A stretch of 40,510 nt of DNA. Origin: a virus. Shown in pieces: positions 9,625 to 40,510 of the stretch. Below the pieces are notes generated by a model, which was given only the letters and a program-made list of their open reading frames with translations, was not told where the DNA came from and did not search any database. The position numbers and the translations under genes are program-made. Positions within the stretch are counted from its first letter, which is position 1; the number at the start of each line of letters is the position of its first letter. The stretch covers positions 1 through 40,510 of IMG/VR virus record IMGVR_UViG_3300037140_000104; one strand, given 5' to 3'.

Positions 9625-9657
9625 CCGCTTAGCGGGGCGCAGGGGTCACTCCCTGCG
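9625..9657 (+). terminator. Tandem hairpins after the tail tube gene
   Basis: CCGC/GCGG (9625-9635, loop TTA) and CGCAGGG/CCCTGCG (9638-9644 with 9651-9657, loop of six) lie 14-46 bases after the tube stop. No T-run follows, so this may be an attenuator or only structure within the end of the converging endonuclease gene, whose stop is at 9629. Confidence 0.35.
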
Positions 9658-10084
9658 TCTCTAAGCCTTGGTTTTTGGTACGTCGTTGGTTGCGTTGTTG
9701 CTGTGATCGTGTAGCCCAACGACAGTTGCCCGGTTCATAGTTTCCATCGTTGTCGATGCGGTCGAGCGTTAGGTCTTTTGGCCGTTCGTTCATGTCGGCA
9801 AGGAAGTTCTCAAACTTGAACCACGATTCACAAATCTCGATCCCACGTCCACCATAACCATCCCAAAATGGATCGTTTGAATTCGTGCAACGTTGAATCA
9901 TAGACTTCCACGAACGATATGTGGGCGAGCGCCCGTGACGGGCGTGTCCATGTTTCGTGGGTCTACCAGCCTTACCAATCTTTTGGTCGGCTTTCAAATC
10001 ACCCCGGCGTAGTCGCTGGTAATGCGTAAAGCACAATCCGCGACAATGAATGGGTTTTGGACAGCCGACAATTGAGCAGTTCAT
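9629..10084 (-). CDS. HNH-type homing endonuclease (GGRGI family)
   Basis: The protein has 151 residues from ATG 10084. The N-terminus has a zinc-like motif, CSIVGCPKPIHCRGLCFTHY followed by a basic stretch. The rest is the phage-type core found also at 28403 and 30071: SWKSMIQRCTN, GYGGRGIEICESW, FLADMNERP, LDRIDNDGNYEPGNCRWAT. It lies antisense between tube and chaperone genes. AAGGA at 9610-9614 and 10118-10122 brackets the cassette and could be the split SD of the ancestral junction. It seems to have its own promoter (TTGTTA-N17-TATACT), with the -10 box six bases before this ATG, suggesting leaderless translation. A longer start at 10102 is possible but lies inside the promoter. Confidence 0.82.
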   Translation of the reverse strand: MNCSIVGCPKPIHCRGLCFTHYQRLRRGDLKADQKIGKAGRPTKHGHARHGRSPTYRSWKSMIQRCTNSNDPFWDGYGGRGIEICESWFKFENFLADMNERPKDLTLDRIDNDGNYEPGNCRWATRSQQQRNQRRTKNQGLETQGVTPAPR

Positions 10085-10090
10085 GATTGT

Positions 10091-10119
10091 AGTATACCAC
10101 AAACCCCGTAATGTAACAA
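10091..10119 (-). promoter_or_regulatory. Promoter of the antisense endonuclease gene
   Basis: On the reverse strand TTGTTA (10119-10114), a 17-base spacer and TATACT (10096-10091) form a good sigma-70-type promoter. The endonuclease ATG at 10084 lies six bases after the -10 box, about where transcription should start, so the message would be leaderless or nearly so. Confidence 0.55.
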
Positions 10120-24446: not shown

Positions 24447-25131
24447 GTGACTGTTCCTTTGTTCGTTTGGCGAGCCAAGCTTTTTTGTTGGCTCGTTTGA
24501 CCGCCTGCTTTGTGGGATCGGCCCACGCGGCTGCGCTTTTCGCCTTCTTGCATTCCTTGCAGGATGCTTGACGACCGACAGTGCCGCTACTGTAAGTTCG
24601 GCTGTGAAACTGATTGAAAGGCTTCTCGACTTTGCAGTCCACGCACGTCTTCTCGCCCTCGATGACCACAGGCGCGACCGCAGCCTTGACAGCCTTTGCT
24701 CGTTTGCGTTGCGCAGCTTTCTTGACCGTCGCAGCTTTCCTAGCTTTCTCAGCCGCTTTGAACTCGGCTCGCGCCTTCCGTTCTTTTGCTAGCTGTGCCT
24801 TCTCTTTGCGCCGTTTGTCCGCCCACTTGAGACTCTTCGCCTTGCTCGCGGTCCTTGTCTGCTTTTCCTCCTGACTAAGCTCTTTGACATCCACGTCCTT
24901 TGGTTTGACCCACATGGCTTCCTCGCCAAGTTCAGATCGAAGCCCAGGCACGCAGACATCACAGATAGCATCGCCCTCAAGGATGCCGCCCTTGAAGTAG
25001 CGCGGGGTGTACGTGCCTTTGAAGCAGTGTTGGCACATGAACAGTTGGCGAAATGGGATCGTGTACTTGCCCACTTTGGTAATCGGATTGCCGCCAGGCG
25101 AGAATGCCCTTATGTGAGTCGCGCTGGTCAT
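24439..25131 (-). CDS. Zinc-ribbon protein with lysine/alanine-rich linker
   Basis: The product has 230 residues. Near the N-terminus FMCQHCFKGTY and AICDVCVPG form a CxxC pair. The middle (about 85-150) is a Lys/Ala/Arg-rich, probably long helix. The C-terminal region has CVDCKVEKPFNQFH and SCKECKKAK, a second CxxC pair of a type frequent in phage proteins. Two zinc sites and a strong positive charge suggest nucleic-acid binding. It directly follows the sigma factor gene (ATGA overlap), so a role in phage transcription is possible. A similar CxxC-F-CxxC motif opens the protein at 25805. Confidence 0.68.
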   Translation of the reverse strand: MTSATHIRAFSPGGNPITKVGKYTIPFRQLFMCQHCFKGTYTPRYFKGGILEGDAICDVCVPGLRSELGEEAMWVKPKDVDVKELSQEEKQTRTASKAKSLKWADKRRKEKAQLAKERKARAEFKAAEKARKAATVKKAAQRKRAKAVKAAVAPVVIEGEKTCVDCKVEKPFNQFHSRTYSSGTVGRQASCKECKKAKSAAAWADPTKQAVKRANKKAWLAKRTKEQSHG

Positions 25132-25808
25132 ACGCTCACCATGTTCGTGGCAATCGCCATCGACCTCATTTTGTCCAACGATGCTCGGTACATTTTCCAG
25201 ACTGCGTTCTCGCTCATATCCATTCCTTTGGCTACTTCAATGCCTGTCCGTTTCGGTCCTTTGATCCCATCTGAGAGCAGTTCCACCACAAGCCGATTGC
25301 GTTCCGGCAGCCTGCTTAGAAGAGCTTCCACGTCTACGCCTTCATATGCGTGTTCTTCTTCGTAGATGACAGCCGGGTCTTGGCTCATCGTCTCGTCGCT
25401 GACGGTTTCGTTCCACTCCTCAAGCGTGGTGTATTGGATGATGTGTTGTTCAGGAACCCGGATCAGGCTCCCGCGTTCTTTCCTTTGTCGTTCGATGGTT
25501 GACCTGATCCAGATGAAGGCGATGGTGCTGAATCGCTTTTCTCTGCGATAGTCGAACTTCTCCACCGCTCGAATCAAGCCTTCGATTCCCCACCCACACA
25601 ATTCCTCTAGCTCTACTTCGCCAGTGTAGCAACGCTGTGCTATCAGCAATACCAAACGAAGGTTGTGTTCAATGAGCTTGTCCTTTGCTCTCAGGTCGCC
25701 CCTCTCAATCCCCTTAGCTAGCTCGCCCTCTTGATGCGCAGTCAGGAGAGGCAGCTTTAGGGCCTTGATGAACTCCGGCGTTAGATGGTTGAAGTCGTCG
25801 GCATTCAT
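25128..25808 (-). CDS. Phage-encoded sigma-70 family factor
   Basis: The product has 226 residues from ATG 25808, which overlaps the upstream stop. Region 1.2-like sequence (LLTAHQEGELAKGIERGDLR) leads to region 2: IEHNLRLVLLIAQR, LEELCGWGIEGLIRAVEKFD, YRREKRFSTIAFIWIRSTIE, the core-binding and -10-recognition motifs. IRVPEQH is a trace of region 3. The C-terminal 60 residues (LSRLPERNRLVVELLSDGIK, GIEVAKGMDMSENAVWKM) are region 4, which reads the -35 box. It would direct host RNA polymerase to phage promoters. It is expressed within the operon driven by the TTAGGCAGT promoter, so self-reinforcement or a switch to late genes are both possible. Confidence 0.9.
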   Translation of the reverse strand: MNADDFNHLTPEFIKALKLPLLTAHQEGELAKGIERGDLRAKDKLIEHNLRLVLLIAQRCYTGEVELEELCGWGIEGLIRAVEKFDYRREKRFSTIAFIWIRSTIERQRKERGSLIRVPEQHIIQYTTLEEWNETVSDETMSQDPAVIYEEEHAYEGVDVEALLSRLPERNRLVVELLSDGIKGPKRTGIEVAKGMDMSENAVWKMYRASLDKMRSMAIATNMVSV

Positions 25809-26188
25809 GCCGTTACCCGGTGGTCTTGCTTGTGGCATGGCGTGCAGTGCCACTCGACAACAAGCGGTTTGCTGTAGTCCCTGTGATGAGACTCCAGCTT
25901 GCGTTCCTTGCCGCACGCTTCGCAGCGCCTTGGCTTTACGAGCGAGCCCTTTGCGAGTGCTCTTTCGACGGCTTTGTGAGCCTTGATCTTCTCTGGGTTG
26001 AGCCGCTTGTACTTCAGTTGCGTCCGCGCTTCCTGGCTCAGGTGGGTTGCTCGGTATTCCTTCTTGCAGTCTTTGCAATACGACTGGAAGCCCTTTTCGC
26101 GGCACCTATCGAATTGCTTGGTTGATCGTCGTTGTTTGCAGCTAGAGCATTGCTTTCGCTGCGCCGTCCGTGTTGATGTATGAGTCAT
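25805..26188 (-). CDS. Zinc-ribbon/HNH-like nuclease-type protein
   Basis: The product has 127 residues from ATG 26188. CSSCKQRRSTKQFDRC and YCKDCKKEYRATH form an N-terminal zinc ribbon; after a basic helix, CEACGKERKLESHHRDYSKP and EWHCTPCHKQDH form an HNH-like site with paired His. This pattern is frequent in phage proteins annotated as HNH or zinc-finger proteins. The stop overlaps the sigma gene start. Either a homing nuclease or a transcription accessory protein would fit; the intact HH..CxxCH supports a nuclease. Confidence 0.66.
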   Translation of the reverse strand: MTHTSTRTAQRKQCSSCKQRRSTKQFDRCREKGFQSYCKDCKKEYRATHLSQEARTQLKYKRLNPEKIKAHKAVERALAKGSLVKPRRCEACGKERKLESHHRDYSKPLVVEWHCTPCHKQDHRVTA

Positions 26189-27145: not shown

Positions 27146-28419
27146 TACGCTCGCCACCTTTGGTCACGCCACAGAAGCGTTTTGTTGACGTAGGTAGCTG
27201 GCTCTACGCGGAACTGGCCATCTGGGTAGGTCACGACCGTGACGAATCCCTGCTGCCAATCAGGAAGCACCGTGAATCCAGGGAACTTCTTGCCGTTGGT
27301 CTTCTTCTGATCGACTCGGCACATGCAGCCCGCTTCGACGCCGGTCAAAACCTCGGGCTCGCCATGAATGTCGTGAGCCGTGTGGTAGACGATCCCCTGC
27401 CGATGCGTGTGGCCGACGATCACTGAGTAGCCAAGGTGCTCTAGGGTGGCTAGAGCGCTCGTGCCCGATCCCTTCTTGGCAATCCAGCCGTGACGAACCG
27501 CTAGGTTTTCGCTGATCTCGATCTGCCCCATGTCGTATGGACCCTCAGGATCTACGTAGTCGATGCCTAGCTCGTCTAGGCGCAACAAGTGAGGAACCGT
27601 CAGAACGGGCTCGCCTGCATCCTCAGGACTATCCGCGCGCTTGACTCCGTACAACGGCTGCACCGATGGCTTATCGAGCAGGATGTTCCTTAGACGCTCA
27701 TCGTGGTTGCCGCAGAGTTTCGACCACTTGGTATCGGGTGATGCGACTCGATAGCCCCTGAGAAGGTCATATCCGGCCTGTAGGCATTCGTTGACCGTTG
27801 CTGTGTTCTCTGGGTCCAGACGATGCCGTGAGATCGTCGGCAGATCGATTGTGTCGCCGAGCGAGATACCGAAGTCCGGCTCGTTGGCTTCCAGCCATGC
27901 GCAGAAGACCCGATGTAGCCCCTCATCATGGAACGGGGCTTGCTGATCCCCAACGACTACCGTCAGGTGTGGCTTGCCGCGTGCTGGCTTCTTCGGCTTA
28001 GGTGCCTTCCAGCCATCTGTACGCGGCGCGACTATCTGTGCCAGTGGTCGCTTGCGCTTCAGGTGGATCTTGCACTGGTAGTAGGTGACGGTGCCTTGCT
28101 CCTTGCTTGGTCCGTCCCACTCGTTGACGATCAGGTTCTCGATCAACCAATCGGCAGGATCAAGACCTCGGTCGAGGAGCATTGTGTCTGGGTCATCCAG
28201 TTTCCTAGACGGTCTGCTCGTTAGCTGAGCATCATCTCCTTTGATGGTGAGTTCGCCGTTCTGCTTGCTCGGATAACCAAGCTGGTGGCGCTCTCTGAAA
28301 CGTTTGACGCTGTACGACGTGGTTGTGATGGGCAGATTCTTGGCGATCCAGCAATTGCTCTCTCCTCTATGGATAGCTGCTGTGACGAAATCCGCGTGCT
28401 GCTCAAGCGGTGATTGCAT
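27145..28419 (-). CDS. Calcineurin-like metallophosphoesterase
   Basis: The product has 424 residues from ATG 28419 (an ATG at 28464 is possible). The first 60 residues look like an HTH (AAIHRGESNCWIAKNLPITT). From about residue 150 the metallophosphoesterase motifs follow in order: VVGDQQAPFHD, ISLGDTIDL, CGNHDERL, and near the C-terminus VRHGW and VGHTHRQG. These residues bind two metal ions in the family. Such proteins are common in actinobacteriophages; substrates could be nucleic acids or nucleotides. The start overlaps the endonuclease gene by 17 bases, with no clear SD, consistent with the endonuclease having been inserted upstream. Confidence 0.85.
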   Translation of the reverse strand: MQSPLEQHADFVTAAIHRGESNCWIAKNLPITTTSYSVKRFRERHQLGYPSKQNGELTIKGDDAQLTSRPSRKLDDPDTMLLDRGLDPADWLIENLIVNEWDGPSKEQGTVTYYQCKIHLKRKRPLAQIVAPRTDGWKAPKPKKPARGKPHLTVVVGDQQAPFHDEGLHRVFCAWLEANEPDFGISLGDTIDLPTISRHRLDPENTATVNECLQAGYDLLRGYRVASPDTKWSKLCGNHDERLRNILLDKPSVQPLYGVKRADSPEDAGEPVLTVPHLLRLDELGIDYVDPEGPYDMGQIEISENLAVRHGWIAKKGSGTSALATLEHLGYSVIVGHTHRQGIVYHTAHDIHGEPEVLTGVEAGCMCRVDQKKTNGKKFPGFTVLPDWQQGFVTVVTYPDGQFRVEPATYVNKTLLWRDQRWRA

Positions 28420-28978
28420 GTTGGGGGTCTTTCGGAGTAGTCGATTTGGACTCGACTTGTGCATCTTTGGGTGAGAAACTTGGCTTTGTACGTCGTTGGT
28501 TCTGTCGTTGTTGCAACTGCGTAGCCCAGCGACAATTGCCGGGTTCGTAATGTCCTTCGTTGTCGATACGGTCTATTGAGAGCCCTTCGGGTTTCTCGCC
28601 CATGTCTTCTAGGAAGTTCTCGAAAGAGATCAGCCAGCGATCACAGACTTTGATGCCGCGTCCTCCGTAATACGCCCAATTCGGGACGTTGGGGTTAGTA
28701 CAACGTTGCTTCATTGCCCTCCACACTTCGTATGTCAATAGTCCGGCTCCCACGGAATACCCGTGAGCAACGTTGGCTTTGCCGTTAGCGCGTTTCGTCT
28801 CTTCTGCGAGACAACCACAACTTCGCGTGTTGCCCGTGCGTAGATGGTTTACGGTGGCAACGACCTCGTTGCCGCATGAGCACAAACACACCCATCGAAC
28901 CTTGCCGCTAGCTGTACGCTCATCCACCGGATTGAGAACCCATAGGCGACCGAATGTTTGGAATGTAAGATCAAGCAC
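28403..28978 (-). CDS. HNH-type homing endonuclease (zinc domain plus GGRGI core)
   Basis: The product has 191 residues from GTG 28978. The N-terminal zinc domain is DLTFQTFGRLWVLNP, CLCSCGNEV, RSCGCLAEE. The core is [57 protein letters not shown] tail of about 25 residues is rich in Ser, Lys and Pro. GAAGGAG lies seven bases before the GTG, which overlaps the upstream gene's stop. An ATG at 29014 exists but has no SD. The two-domain layout equals that of the protein at 30071. Confidence 0.84.
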   Translation of the reverse strand: MLDLTFQTFGRLWVLNPVDERTASGKVRWVCLCSCGNEVVATVNHLRTGNTRSCGCLAEETKRANGKANVAHGYSVGAGLLTYEVWRAMKQRCTNPNVPNWAYYGGRGIKVCDRWLISFENFLEDMGEKPEGLSIDRIDNEGHYEPGNCRWATQLQQRQNQRRTKPSFSPKDAQVESKSTTPKDPQHAITA

Positions 28979-29465
28979 TGACGGGCTCCTTCGTAAAGCT
29001 GGCGCTCGTCCCACTGAGTAGGAGTTCCTTGGCTGCCGGGTCTTGTTTTGCCTCTCGGCGGAAACGACGAATGGTGCCTTCTGCGTAGTTCAGTAGATAT
29101 GCAAGCTCGCGCGGCTCTACGTCTGGGTTCTCAAGCACGATTTTCTTCATGTGCTTTGCGATGTCGGCCTCGTGAACGATCTCGGGGTTTTTCCTGATGG
29201 CTTCTGCCGCGTCCCGGATCGGATGGATCGACCTGCGCTCCGCTACTGCTCTGCGGCCTGCAACGACTTTCTCGACGCGCATGAGTAGTTTCACGATCCA
29301 CTCTGCATCATCGCCATAGTCCTTAGGTGCTGAGCCCGTGGCCGCAGGGTGTTTGCCCTGTGATGCCCCGTAAACGCTGGTTCCTCCTCCTGAGTGCAGG
29401 CTAAGTGCCTGCCAGTGCTTTCCGATCTCCGTTAGCACTGTGTTGATGTCGCTGGTTGCTTCTAT
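28971..29465 (-). CDS. HTH-type DNA-binding protein with apparent ATA start
   Basis: This is the first gene of the leftward operon. With ATA at 29465 the product has 164 residues. AAGGAGGAGG lies six bases before this ATA, the best SD in the operon, and no ATG, GTG or TTG is present there; the next in-frame start is GTG 29438, 27 bases further. The C-terminal half (KHMKKIVLENPDVEPRELAY, LLNYAEGTIRRFRREA) is an HTH-like unit, and the middle is basic (KVVAGRRAVAERRSIHPIRD). As a promoter-proximal DNA-binding protein it could be a replication or transcription regulator. No family recognised. Confidence 0.62.
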   Translation of the reverse strand: MEATSDINTVLTEIGKHWQALSLHSGGGTSVYGASQGKHPAATGSAPKDYGDDAEWIVKLLMRVEKVVAGRRAVAERRSIHPIRDAAEAIRKNPEIVHEADIAKHMKKIVLENPDVEPRELAYLLNYAEGTIRRFRREAKQDPAAKELLLSGTSASFTKEPVSA

Positions 29466-29828
29466 GTTGATCCTCCTCCTTGGTGTCTTTTCGATTGGTT
29501 TGCTGCATTTGCGTAGCCTTCACATGATCCCTCTTGGGGAGTGTAGGGTTCATACGACGTTGAAGATGATGGTTTCCTAAGCCCCTTCAACCTGTCGAGC
29601 CCCACAACCGCAAGTCAGACCTCGTAGGGTCCTTGCAAGTTGCACCAGCATGAGTGGCGGGACATCTGTTGTCCCGCACTAGGTATTACTCCCGCCCTAA
29701 AGGGCTAGCTGGACCACTCTCGACAGGGCTAACCTGTCAACGCTCCGGATATGCCTTGTACGTCCGTTCCGGTGGGACTGTGCGCGAGTGTCCTGAGCGC
29801 CAATTGTTGAGCGTACGATTTTGCTCTA
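29466..29828 (-). ncRNA. Structured 5' leader or ncRNA of the leftward operon
   Basis: From the expected start near 29828 to the first gene there are about 360 bases without a convincing frame. Strong helices: GACAGG/CCTGTC (29722-29738), GCCCT/AGGGC (29694-29705), GCGGGAC/GTCCCGC extended by AGT/ACT (29653-29680) and GTTGAAG/CTTCAAC (29559-29591). The leader ends in AAGGAGGAGG. A riboswitch-like leader, an anti-termination signal or a separate small RNA are all possible. No known class recognised. Confidence 0.5.
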
Positions 29829-29834
29829 TACACT

Positions 29835-29866
29835 ATTATGACACATCGGAGTATCGAACTGCCTAA
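29835..29866 (-). promoter_or_regulatory. Bipartite phage promoter, leftward copy
   Basis: On the reverse strand TTAGGCAGT (29866-29858) is followed after exactly 17 bases by CATAAT (29840-29835). The same nine-base box and spacing recur at 30032 and 30613 on the forward strand. Position upstream of the leader and the whole leftward operon makes this its likely promoter. Confidence 0.68.
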
Positions 29867-30031
29867 ACTCGTCAGCCAAAGTCACTTCAGTAGGTAAAGT
29901 AACGCCTATCTACGCGAGATTGAGTGGTCAAAGCCATTGTGCGATTCCTTGTGCAGAGCGTGTTTCGACTCCACTTTGCCGCAAACCTACACGCCCACCC
30001 ACAGACAGTCACACACGCGGTCTGAACCAAT

Positions 30032-30063
30032 TTAGGCAGTAGTCAAACATAACTGGCTATACT
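30032..30063 (+). promoter_or_regulatory. Bipartite phage promoter, first rightward copy
   Basis: TTAGGCAGT (30032-30040), 17 bases, then TATACT (30058-30063). ATAGGTA and the ATG of the endonuclease gene follow at once, so the transcript should begin at or next to the start codon (leaderless). The 160 bases between this and the leftward promoter hold no gene and no repeat that I could make out. Confidence 0.7.
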
Positions 30064-30070
30064 ATAGGTA

Positions 30071-30601
30071 ATGGGACAAACCATCAAGCACATCCAGCCC
30101 GGAACACGATTTGACCGTTTGACAGTCGAGGAATTCGCCGGTAGGCGTAAGAGCGGCAAACAGTCATTCACCCAATACCTGTGCCGCTGCGATTGCGGCA
30201 CCAAGAAGATCGTGACGGCCCACCACCTACGCCGTGGTGCTACTCGATCATGTGGGTGTCTGAAACGGGATCGTGTAAGCGAAGCAAAGAAGACGCACGG
30301 GATGAGCCGAGGAGCGAGCAAACACCCTCTTTACCGAACGTGGGTCAACATGCGCCAGCGATGCAACAATCGTAGCGATGGCAACTATGGTCGCTACGGT
30401 GGACGTGGCATCAAAGTCTGTGGACGATGGGACGACTTCGAGAACTTCCTTGCTGACATGGGCGAGCGGCCAGAGGGAATGACTCTCGACCGCATCGACA
30501 ACAATGGAGACTACGAACCGGATAATTGTCGCTGGGCTACCTGGGATGAGCAGAACAACAACAAGACTCAATCGGGCATCAACCAACATACCAAGAAATG
30601 A
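30071..30601 (+). CDS. HNH-type homing endonuclease (zinc domain plus GGRGI core)
   Basis: The product has 176 residues. The N-terminal zinc domain is [33 protein letters not shown]; the core is [56 protein letters not shown]. It has the same architecture as 28403-28978 on the other side of the control region. There is no SD; ATG 30071 lies seven bases after the TATACT box, so a leaderless message is likely. As the first gene from a phage promoter it may be expressed early and strongly, unusual for a homing gene. Confidence 0.86.
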
Positions 30602-30612
30602 ATCCATGAAAG

Positions 30613-30644
30613 TTAGGCAGTTTGTGTTCGTCCAGTGCCATACT
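30613..30644 (+). promoter_or_regulatory. Bipartite phage promoter, second rightward copy
   Basis: TTAGGCAGT (30613-30621), 17 bases, then CATACTATAGGTA starting at 30639; twelve of these thirteen bases equal those of the copy at 30058. Transcription should begin near 30651, about 33 bases before the SD-led gene at 30684. It probably also transcribes the structured region that follows. Confidence 0.7.
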
Positions 30645-30683
30645 ATAGGTAAGATGTCAGAAATGGCAGCGCGGAGGAACACA

Positions 30684-30905
30684 ATGAGCAAAATCGTACC
30701 TAGCACATTCACGCCACATACCAGCGTCGGAACCGCGCCAGCGCGCGAGCACCCAAACGGCGAATGGCGATACCCAATCGGGATCTTCTCTGATCCCAGG
30801 CTCCTAGATCCGATCTTGCGCAAGCTTCAGGTCAAGATGCGCGATGCCGAAATCGAACATCGTCGGGCACACCCGGACGTTCCGCTAGCAACGGAGTTCG
30901 GCTAG
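30684..30905 (+). CDS. Small protein of unknown function
   Basis: The product has 73 residues: SKIVPSTFTPHTSVGTAPAR, then EWRYPIGIFSDPRLLDPILR and a charged helix to the end. No family recognised. GGAGGAA lies six bases before ATG 30684. In-frame ATG 30654 would extend it by ten residues but lacks an SD. First gene from the second rightward promoter; the 700-base structured region follows directly. Confidence 0.66.
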   Translation: MSKIVPSTFTPHTSVGTAPAREHPNGEWRYPIGIFSDPRLLDPILRKLQVKMRDAEIEHRRAHPDVPLATEFG

Positions 30906-30910
30906 AACTT

Positions 30911-31530
30911 TTGGTCTGTGATTTGCTGAGGTTGCGAGCCTACCATGTGAACGATGTACTGGCTTGCGCAAATCGCCAAAACAACATAGACGGTAAGAAT
31001 CACAGATACCTCAACCGTCACACATAGACCGGCCATCCAAACGACGCTGATTTACGTATCTGGTGTTGCCAATCTCCGGTCGAGACGCCTCCTAAGGATG
31101 GATGGGGCGTCTCAAATCTTTCAACAGTAAGCGGTCTGCTAGACTGATTCGCAGATCAACAAAGTTTGACGGCTGGATGACCACAGTGGTTTCCTCCCCC
31201 TCGTCTGGTCGTCAAAATCATCGTGCTCAACGCACGTTTCGGCACTCCAGGCTTGAGTTCCTTTAGCCAGATGCCCGATCCGCTCTTAGTAGTGGAGTGA
31301 GCTAAGAGCAACACTTCAAAATCCCCTGTAGTCCCTTCGTGGATTGCAGATGCAGGCTCCCTACGGGAACCTAGCGGATGGGCGACAGGTGCCTTCTCAG
31401 CACTGTATGGCGTCCACAGGCCGACATGAGAGGTCGGCCACACGGGGCTCAGAGGCGCGTAGTGCGCGCTCAGGGGATCGTATCCCGAAAGCTCCATCAA
31501 CGGGGGTCTAAGCGTGGTCCGCTTAGCTCA
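30911..31530 (+). ncRNA. Large, hairpin-rich noncoding RNA candidate
   Basis: About 620 bases lack a convincing gene but carry many helices: 30913-30923 with 30998-31010, enclosing GCGAGCC/GGCTTGC (30934-30940, 30961-30967); 31027-31032 with 31076-31081; GAGACGCC/GGCGTCTC (31082-31113); CGTGC/GCACG near 31222-31236; GCTCTTAG/CTAAGAGC (31282-31309); 31355-31371; 31385-31406; GGCCGAC/GTCGGCC (31419-31439); 31452-31471; GGGAT/ATCCC (31474-31486); CTAAGCG/CGCTTAG (31508-31526). A G-U pair in the inner 30934 helix favours the forward strand; the 31355 hairpin favours the reverse. It lies downstream of the 30613 promoter. Large ornate phage RNAs such as GOLLD and ROOL are the nearest concept; I cannot assign it to either. 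Confidence 0.55.
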
Positions 31531-31608
31531 AACGTCAAAACGCTGAAAAGCACCTGCGCCCCGATAACTTCATAACCAACCCCCCGAAAAACAAACAAGG
31601 GAGTCACA

Positions 31609-31803
31609 ATGTCACAAGATGTACAAGCGCTACAGGTCTGGGAGAGCGGCGCGCTGGTGGTACAACCTTCGCTTCTCGAAGTAGATCGGTACAACCAGAA
31701 CATTCACGATGCGGCGCACGGTGCAGCGGTCCTATCACTCAATCATACGCCCGGTCTATGCAGCAGATGCGATACAGCGCGGGTCGCGCGGGCTAATGAG
31801 TAA
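31609..31803 (+). CDS. Small protein of unknown function
   Basis: The product has 64 residues: SQDVQALQVWESGALVVQPS, LLEVDRYNQNIHDAAHGAAV and a C-terminal GLCSRCDTARVARANE with a single CxxC pair. AAGGGAG lies six bases before the ATG. No family recognised. It follows the structured RNA region and begins a run of small genes. Confidence 0.62.
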   Translation: MSQDVQALQVWESGALVVQPSLLEVDRYNQNIHDAAHGAAVLSLNHTPGLCSRCDTARVARANE

Positions 31804-33752: not shown

Positions 33753-33763
33753 ATCGGCCTACT

Positions 33764-33973
33764 GTGAACCAGACAGAGCAACAGGTACATGCAGACCAAC
33801 AAGATCGCATAGCAGAGTGGCGCGATGGCGTACACAGATGGACATGCGCTAACTGGGCACCGGCACAAGGATTCACCACTACCGAATCAACAGAACCGCA
33901 GCCAGACCCCAATGATTCAGACGCTCCAATGCTAAGGCTTCGAGCAGGATCGGCCTCAAGATACCAGCAGTAG
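33764..33973 (+). CDS. Possible small protein, GTG start
   Basis: A 69-residue frame opens with GTG at 33764: NQTEQQVHADQQDRIAEWRD, then RWTCANWAPAQGFTTTESTE and a polar end. There is no clear SD and no recognised family. It fills the space before the terminase leader. Real coding is possible but not shown. Confidence 0.4.
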   Translation: MNQTEQQVHADQQDRIAEWRDGVHRWTCANWAPAQGFTTTESTEPQPDPNDSDAPMLRLRAGSASRYQQ

Positions 33974-34092
33974 TGGAACACACAACTGCATAGCCCATCA
34001 CACAGCGCGGGCCAAAGGTATTTTCATTCACTGATTCGCCAGCCACATCCTCTGGTCAATCACCCCGGCAAGTTTCTCCCAGGAAGTACATC

Positions 34093-34220
34093 TGACCGCG
34101 CCTCGCTTGTGAAAAACATTCAACGTGCGCAGTCGAGCGCGGAGTCATGGTGAAAATAACGGTGGTATGACCCCGCCGAACGATGTCGCTCAATGACCGC
34201 GCCTCGGGCATGAAAAATAA
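34093..34220 (+). repeat. Direct repeats before the terminase genes
   Basis: TGACCGCGCCTCG, four bases, TGAAAAAYA occurs at 34093-34118 and 34194-34219, 101 bases apart. Between them lie partial copies: TGAAAATAA at 34151-34159 and TGACCCCGCC at about 34168. The 300 bases 33974-34273 hold no gene. Iterated sites just before the small terminase gene suggest terminase binding (pac) sites or late promoters. Confidence 0.6.
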
Positions 34221-34273
34221 GTGGGCTAAAACCCAGTCGTAGAGCCAAATCTTGGCCCACAAGGAGTTCTGTC

Positions 34274-39946: not shown

Positions 39947-40510
39947 ATGTCAACGAATTCAGTGGGCATGAGCGCATCGCTCAAGCCCAATCTCATTAGG
40001 CCATTCGGCTCACAACAGAAGAAGGTCCGCAGCTTTAGCGTGCCGGGTCTAGGACGCATTGCATTCTCGCGCGATGCTGGCGAGGCGGGTCTTTTCTCGC
40101 AGCACTTCCTTGCCACCCGTCTTCGCGCAATCGTTACCGACCCTCTCGGACGCATCGTAGAGGAACGCGATCTCGGATCGGGCAAAGTTACGAACGCAGG
40201 CGTTCTCTGCCTCGCCAATGATGCAGTTGGCTGGCCGGTAGAAGCCTCTGCGCCAAGCAACACGTTCGCGTGGACCAAGTACCACTCATGGGGCATCGGC
40301 ACGACAGCAGAGAAAGTCGAACAGCTAGTCCTGACCACGCCGTCCGCTCCGACAGCGACAGAAGCCGTCGCGGGTACCAACACACTTGTAACCGCAGCCA
40401 ACGTTCAGAAGCTCCAGTCAGAAGCGAAAATCAAAGCCGAAAGCAACCTGGCGATTACCGAGTGGGGACTGACCACGGAGAAAATCCTCAAATCAACTAC
40501 AGGTACGCCT
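39947..40510 (+). CDS. Virion structural protein, N-terminal part (continues at 210-551)
   Basis: ATG 39947 follows GGAGGG nine bases upstream, just after the capsid terminator. The window ends inside the frame at residue 188, and the frame continues at base 210 to the stop at 551, giving about 301 residues. The N-terminus reads SLKPNLIRPFGSQQKKVRSF and SVPGLGRIAFSRDAGEAGLF, then a beta region (RAIVTDPLGRIVEERDLGSG). The first codon of the overlap is residue 120. A head decoration or neck protein is inferred from position. Confidence 0.8.
   Translation, partial: MSTNSVGMSASLKPNLIRPFGSQQKKVRSFSVPGLGRIAFSRDAGEAGLFSQHFLATRLRAIVTDPLGRIVEERDLGSGKVTNAGVLCLANDAVGWPVEASAPSNTFAWTKYHSWGIGTTAEKVEQLVLTTPSAPTATEAVAGTNTLVTAANVQKLQSEAKIKAESNLAITEWGLTTEKILKSTTGTP
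40302..40510. repeat. Terminal overlap, right copy (circular closure)
   Basis: This is the right-hand copy of bases 1-209, with C at 40383 instead of T at 82. Removing one copy gives a 40,301-bp circle in which the gene starting at 39947 reads through without a break. Confidence 0.93.

Follow-up and report, generated by a model that had tools for sequence, protein, structure and literature searches.

A stretch of 703 bases at positions 30906-31608 of a phage genome carries no convincing gene, contains more structure than expected by chance and lies downstream of a repeated promoter-like element, all of which we observed directly, and we regard it as an orphan candidate for the loosely defined group of large structured phage RNAs. 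The window, that is, the whole stretch of DNA analysed, is the 40510-base IMG/VR record IMGVR_UViG_3300037140_000104. We judge the chances to be about even that the region acts as RNA within the rightward transcript, either as a free RNA or as a cis-acting control element. With no relative carrying the same stretch found, we offer this as a guess with good support, not as a demonstrated RNA. A sequence-only reading of this DNA had described a large, structured, non-coding and undescribed phage RNA; these attributes stood up to shuffling, to an Rfam search and to a search for relatives, whereas the words ‘phage RNA’ are the part that we infer.

Positions 1-209 and 40302-40510 of the window are identical at 208 of 209 bases, and from this terminal repeat with its single mismatch it follows that the genome is in effect complete at about 40.3 kb. 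The overlapping ends give a circular map, although the record class is linear. The portal and capsid proteins are 28-37% like those of Arthrobacter, Mycobacterium and Microbacterium phages, and a tail-sheath-like protein is also encoded. There are zero tRNA genes in the whole window according to ARAGORN, and neither a polymerase nor an integrase was seen among the scanned ORFs. Several HNH endonuclease genes are present, including the paralogues at 28403-29014 (reverse strand) and 30071-30601 (forward strand), which share 75% DNA identity over 110 bases, and a putative third, assigned from sequence, at 9629-10102 (reverse strand). The earlier statement that most genes overlap is partly true, but gaps other than the region under study exist at 29439-30070 and 33753-34273.

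The region is bounded by two rightward genes, the first with its stop at 30905 and the second with its ATG at 31609. When codon scores were calculated, no ORF within 30906-31608 scored like the phage’s own genes. The top-scoring one, 31156-31500 on the reverse strand (114 codons), reached -0.036 per codon, with 92% of spurious ORFs scoring lower and 97% of real genes scoring higher; no Shine-Dalgarno sequence was seen by eye, there was no Pfam match, and tblastn against phage genomes returned nothing. We therefore rejected a hidden protein on the basis of codon scores, Pfam and tblastn, which agrees with the sequence-only reading that no credible gene lies between about 30905 and 31609. A group I or group II intron was rejected because no Rfam intron model matched, and no split gene was seen around the region, the flanking frames each having their own start and stop. 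Of the two neighbours, the upstream gene (30684-30905, forward strand, 73 codons) has a GGAGG Shine-Dalgarno sequence and a codon score of 0.118, higher than that of all 91 spurious ORFs, and its product matched no family. Downstream, a possible short gene of 64 codons (31609-31803, forward strand) carries AAGGGAG before its ATG; its codon score is weak (-0.083), and the non-coding stretch may therefore continue to 31865. Small genes follow further rightward, and then the terminase and head genes.

Folding of the whole region yielded z-scores of -4.29 on the forward and -3.36 on the reverse strand, and on each strand none of 100 dinucleotide shuffles was as stable. Folding beyond dinucleotide-matched shuffles, as expected of structured non-coding RNA, was thus found here. 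The control gap at 33753-34273 is also non-coding and showed z-scores of +0.15 and -0.27, which makes chance a less likely explanation for 30906-31608. Perfect hairpins of at least seven pairs number four in the region against 0.44 expected, a count reached by none of 300 shuffles and by 1.3% of the 703-base windows of the genome. These are the four stems, of 7-8 pairs, at 31082, 31282, 31419 and 31508 that had been noticed by inspection, and the dense structure described at the same time is likewise evident from the shuffles. When the genome was divided into 620-nt tiles, the region ranked third of 65 on the forward and first of 65 on the reverse strand; in 120-nt windows the shift was modest, with mean z-scores of -1.5 (forward) and -1.2 (reverse) versus -0.4 genome-wide. 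The structure signal is strong yet not unique, as some coding tiles fold equally well.

The forward-strand fold, forward being the putative sense of the candidate, predicts a succession of helices. Well-supported ones pair 30934-30940 with 30961-30967, 30989-30994 with 31014-31019, and 31027-31032 with 31076-31081. They are followed by a hairpin with eight perfect pairs at 31082-31113 (31082-31091/31104-31113 in the fold), a hairpin of 16 uninterrupted pairs including four G-U pairs (31165-31180/31201-31216, p=0.94), a second hairpin with eight perfect pairs at 31282-31309, found both in the hairpin count and in the fold, and a hairpin of nine pairs including two G-U pairs (31326-31334/31341-31349, p=0.99). 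The 3' part, 31376-31565, is predicted to form a multibranch domain on the forward strand (z -3.82; -4.33 on the reverse strand; 0/200 shuffles for each). Its closing helix pairs GGGCG-A-CAGGTGC-(4)-TCAGC (31380-31401) with GCTGA-(3)-GCACCTG-CGCCC (31542-31561), and inside it lie hairpins at 31419-31439, 31456-31468, 31474-31486 and 31508-31526. The boundary of 31530 given by the sequence-only reading is hence too short, since the structure continues and the helix 31380-31401/31542-31561 closes a larger domain.

At the 5' end, the two nested stems reported between 30913 and 31010 are both present: TCTGTGATT pairs with AATCACAGA (30915-30923/30998-31006) and GATTTGC with GCAAATC (30920-30926/30968-30974). 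Bases 30920-30923 are common to both stems, which therefore cannot both form fully as had been implied. On the forward strand, the helix 30915-30923/30998-31006 would stand in pseudoknot order with TGAGGT/ACCTCA at ~30927-30932/31008-31013 (by reading the sequence), and such pseudoknotted 5' helices lie beyond scoring by nested folding. This 5' segment, 30912-31025, folds into one long hairpin when the reverse strand is taken (z -3.78, 0/200 shuffles), as against partly pseudoknotted alternative stems on the forward strand (z -1.49, 14/200). Conversely, segment 31161-31280 scored -3.1 on the forward and -0.6 on the reverse strand, and it and segment 31278-31380 beat shuffles on the forward strand only, via G-U pairs; the four G-U pairs in the hairpin 31165-31216 mean that the forward strand is needed. 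Segment borders were picked after viewing the fold, making the segment z-scores somewhat flattering. The promoter and the middle segments favour the forward strand and the first 110 bases favour the reverse, so that the doubt over the strand voiced earlier was justified.

Upstream of the 73-codon gene lies the promoter-like element TTAGGCAG-N18-CATACTATAGGTAA (30613-30652, forward strand). The pattern TTAGGCAG-N18-NATACTATAGGTAA occurs twice on the forward strand, at 30032-30071 and ~30613-30652, with 21 of 21 specified bases equal and with spacers that are unrelated and not conserved. The remaining sites in the genome fall to about 14/21, none exceeding 15/21, and the pattern had no match in IMG/VR. 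Given two exact copies, the promoter at ~30613-30652 is real-looking. Because this second copy precedes the gene at 30684-30905, transcription from it would have to pass through that gene to arrive at the region; a phage promoter does lie upstream, as had been claimed, but not directly. We found no promoter of the region’s own immediately before it, no promoter-like site reading leftward into it in the genome scan and no recognisable terminator downstream of it. A divergent relative of the forward copies, TTAGGCAG-N18-CATAATAG, is located on the reverse strand at 29826, within 29439-29866, and is followed by ~390 non-coding bases ahead of the first leftward gene. This leftward leader has a sense-strand z of -0.9 and beats shuffles on its antisense strand only, and the motifs it has in common with the region amount to a few CCTAAG words. 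The start of the HNH gene at 30071 adjoins TATACTATAGGTAATG, which suggests leaderless transcripts, and the phage sigma factor encoded at 25128-26105 on the reverse strand (Pfam Sigma70_r2, phrog_351) may be the reader of the TTAGGCAG promoters.

Relatives were sought via terminase, portal and capsid scans of IMG/VR and bacterial genomes. Searches by DNA similarity, by patterns from the promoter and from fragments, and with a covariance model built on the 3' domain took in phage records and plasmids as well as IMG/VR and bacterial genomes. The closest phage relatives have a terminase 42-46% identical (locus L050) and a capsid protein 37% identical (locus L014), and none of the protein-level relatives showed DNA similarity at the region. 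As judged from these searches, the phage is a singleton in the collections covered. In the same collections, neither BLAST nor the covariance model turned up anything related to the region or any hint of its conservation. When exact fragments of the region were searched in IMG/VR, the first gave zero matches and the second a single 18-base match (20 when extended) with no wider similarity, which we dismissed as chance level. The covariance model, built from the single sequence of the 3' domain and run on ~200 loci, found itself and otherwise weak partial matches; the strongest (locus L215; 21.7 bits, rough E 7e-4) covered 64 bases only and was lost when searched alone. BLAST against 396 genomes of one bacterial phylum gave two short matches. 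The better of them (30 bases, E 4e-4 against a single genome) looks like the beginning of a sugar-nucleotide dehydratase-like frame and, with 396 genomes searched, is what chance would give.

Phages have few large structured RNAs, most of them without a known function; GOLLD is often found near tRNA islands, genes or arrays. In HK022 put and other leaders for processive antitermination, structured RNA follows divergent phage promoters, and the region resembles them in this respect, but put sites measure ~70 nt, and the region is about ten times longer and has no known motif. An Rfam 15 cmscan at gathering thresholds and at E<=10 assigned no family, and its sole hits, TCL6_3 and MS2 among them, were due to chance; the GOLLD, ROOL, OLE and HEARO models, suggested earlier as a check, gave no match, and membership in each was rejected. 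GOLLD, which occurs in phages and prophages, is a large non-coding RNA with an elaborate fold, described as conserved in its 3' region and looser in its 5' region; recent work showed that GOLLD and ROOL both assemble into RNA-only cages (PMC12286853). The compact 3' domain of the region is loosely similar to GOLLD, but the candidate’s phage lacks a tRNA gene and the candidate lacks relatives. ROOL, likewise a large phage RNA, similar in size and rich in helices, differs in that the region has neither a tRNA island nor demonstrable sequence similarity. The likeness to both is one of size and location, and the earlier caution that there was no basis for assigning the region to either was well placed.

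In the model that we propose, rightward transcription would start from TTAGGCAG-N18-NATACTATAGG at ~30613-30652, and the transcript would encode the 73-codon gene first, with the region after it. The transcribed region would fold into a chain of hairpins and then into the closed 3' multibranch domain (31380-31561). It might then be set free as a stable RNA of its own, or it might stay in the transcript and control the downstream small genes, then the terminase and head genes. That it represents a new class of large, multi-domain RNA from phages, without sequence kinship to GOLLD or ROOL and encoded near the start of the rightward operon in a so far singleton lineage, is a tentative and rather doubtful reading. 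If real, the candidate would broaden the group of large structured phage RNAs by another independent case, from an actinophage-like genome. Against the proposed model stand the lack of a homologue for covariation, the reverse-strand preference of the 5' segment, the lack of a promoter immediately before the region and of a terminator after it, and the fact that some coding tiles fold as strongly.

More specifically, the region could be a cis-acting element, placed as a leader or between cistrons, in which the folded RNA acts on the polymerase or ribosome engaged on it and so controls the rightward operon, by processive antitermination, by attenuation or through RNase processing sites. Its position inside that operon, 250 bases past the promoter and ahead of the packaging and head genes, is consistent with such a role, as are the ~390 non-coding bases that likewise follow the divergent promoter. 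However, 700 bases in several domains far exceed what known antitermination RNAs need, the leftward leader is without sense-strand structure and no downstream terminators were recognised, and we consider this version unlikely. About equally unlikely in our view is that the region consists of eroded gene remnants or neutral spacer, with its structure a chance outlier. Such an origin would fit a singleton without conservation whose neighbours are mobile HNH endonucleases and whose genome has further gaps, and it gains from the 114-codon reverse ORF with its borderline coding score and from the coding-DNA tiles of similar z. It is at odds with the shuffles (none of 100 on each strand, and none of 300 for the perfect hairpins), with the other large gap (33753-34273), which has no structure, and with a chain of separate segments that are each past their shuffles.

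A DNA element, be it a replication origin, a single-strand initiation site or a protein-binding array, would use the inverted repeats as DNA, and we regard it as improbable, the least favoured of these alternatives. Watson-Crick-paired helices score on both strands, the region is near the point at which leftward and rightward transcription diverge, and no polymerase gene was seen, so that a host-recruiting origin must exist somewhere in the genome. Yet direct repeats or iterons are absent inside the region, no GC-skew extremum falls there, stem sequences differ among the hairpins, and several of the good helices depend on G-U pairs, which would be unfavourable in DNA. Because of these G-U pairs and the promoter, an RNA role for 30906-31608 fits better than a DNA role.

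The ~520-base non-coding gap at 33753-34273, with a z of about 0, is located directly before the terminase small subunit gene. It contains an imperfect direct repeat, TGACCGCGCCTCG-N4-TGAAAAA, at 34093 and 34194 that is found nowhere else in the genome, and a late promoter or a packaging site are candidates for this gap.
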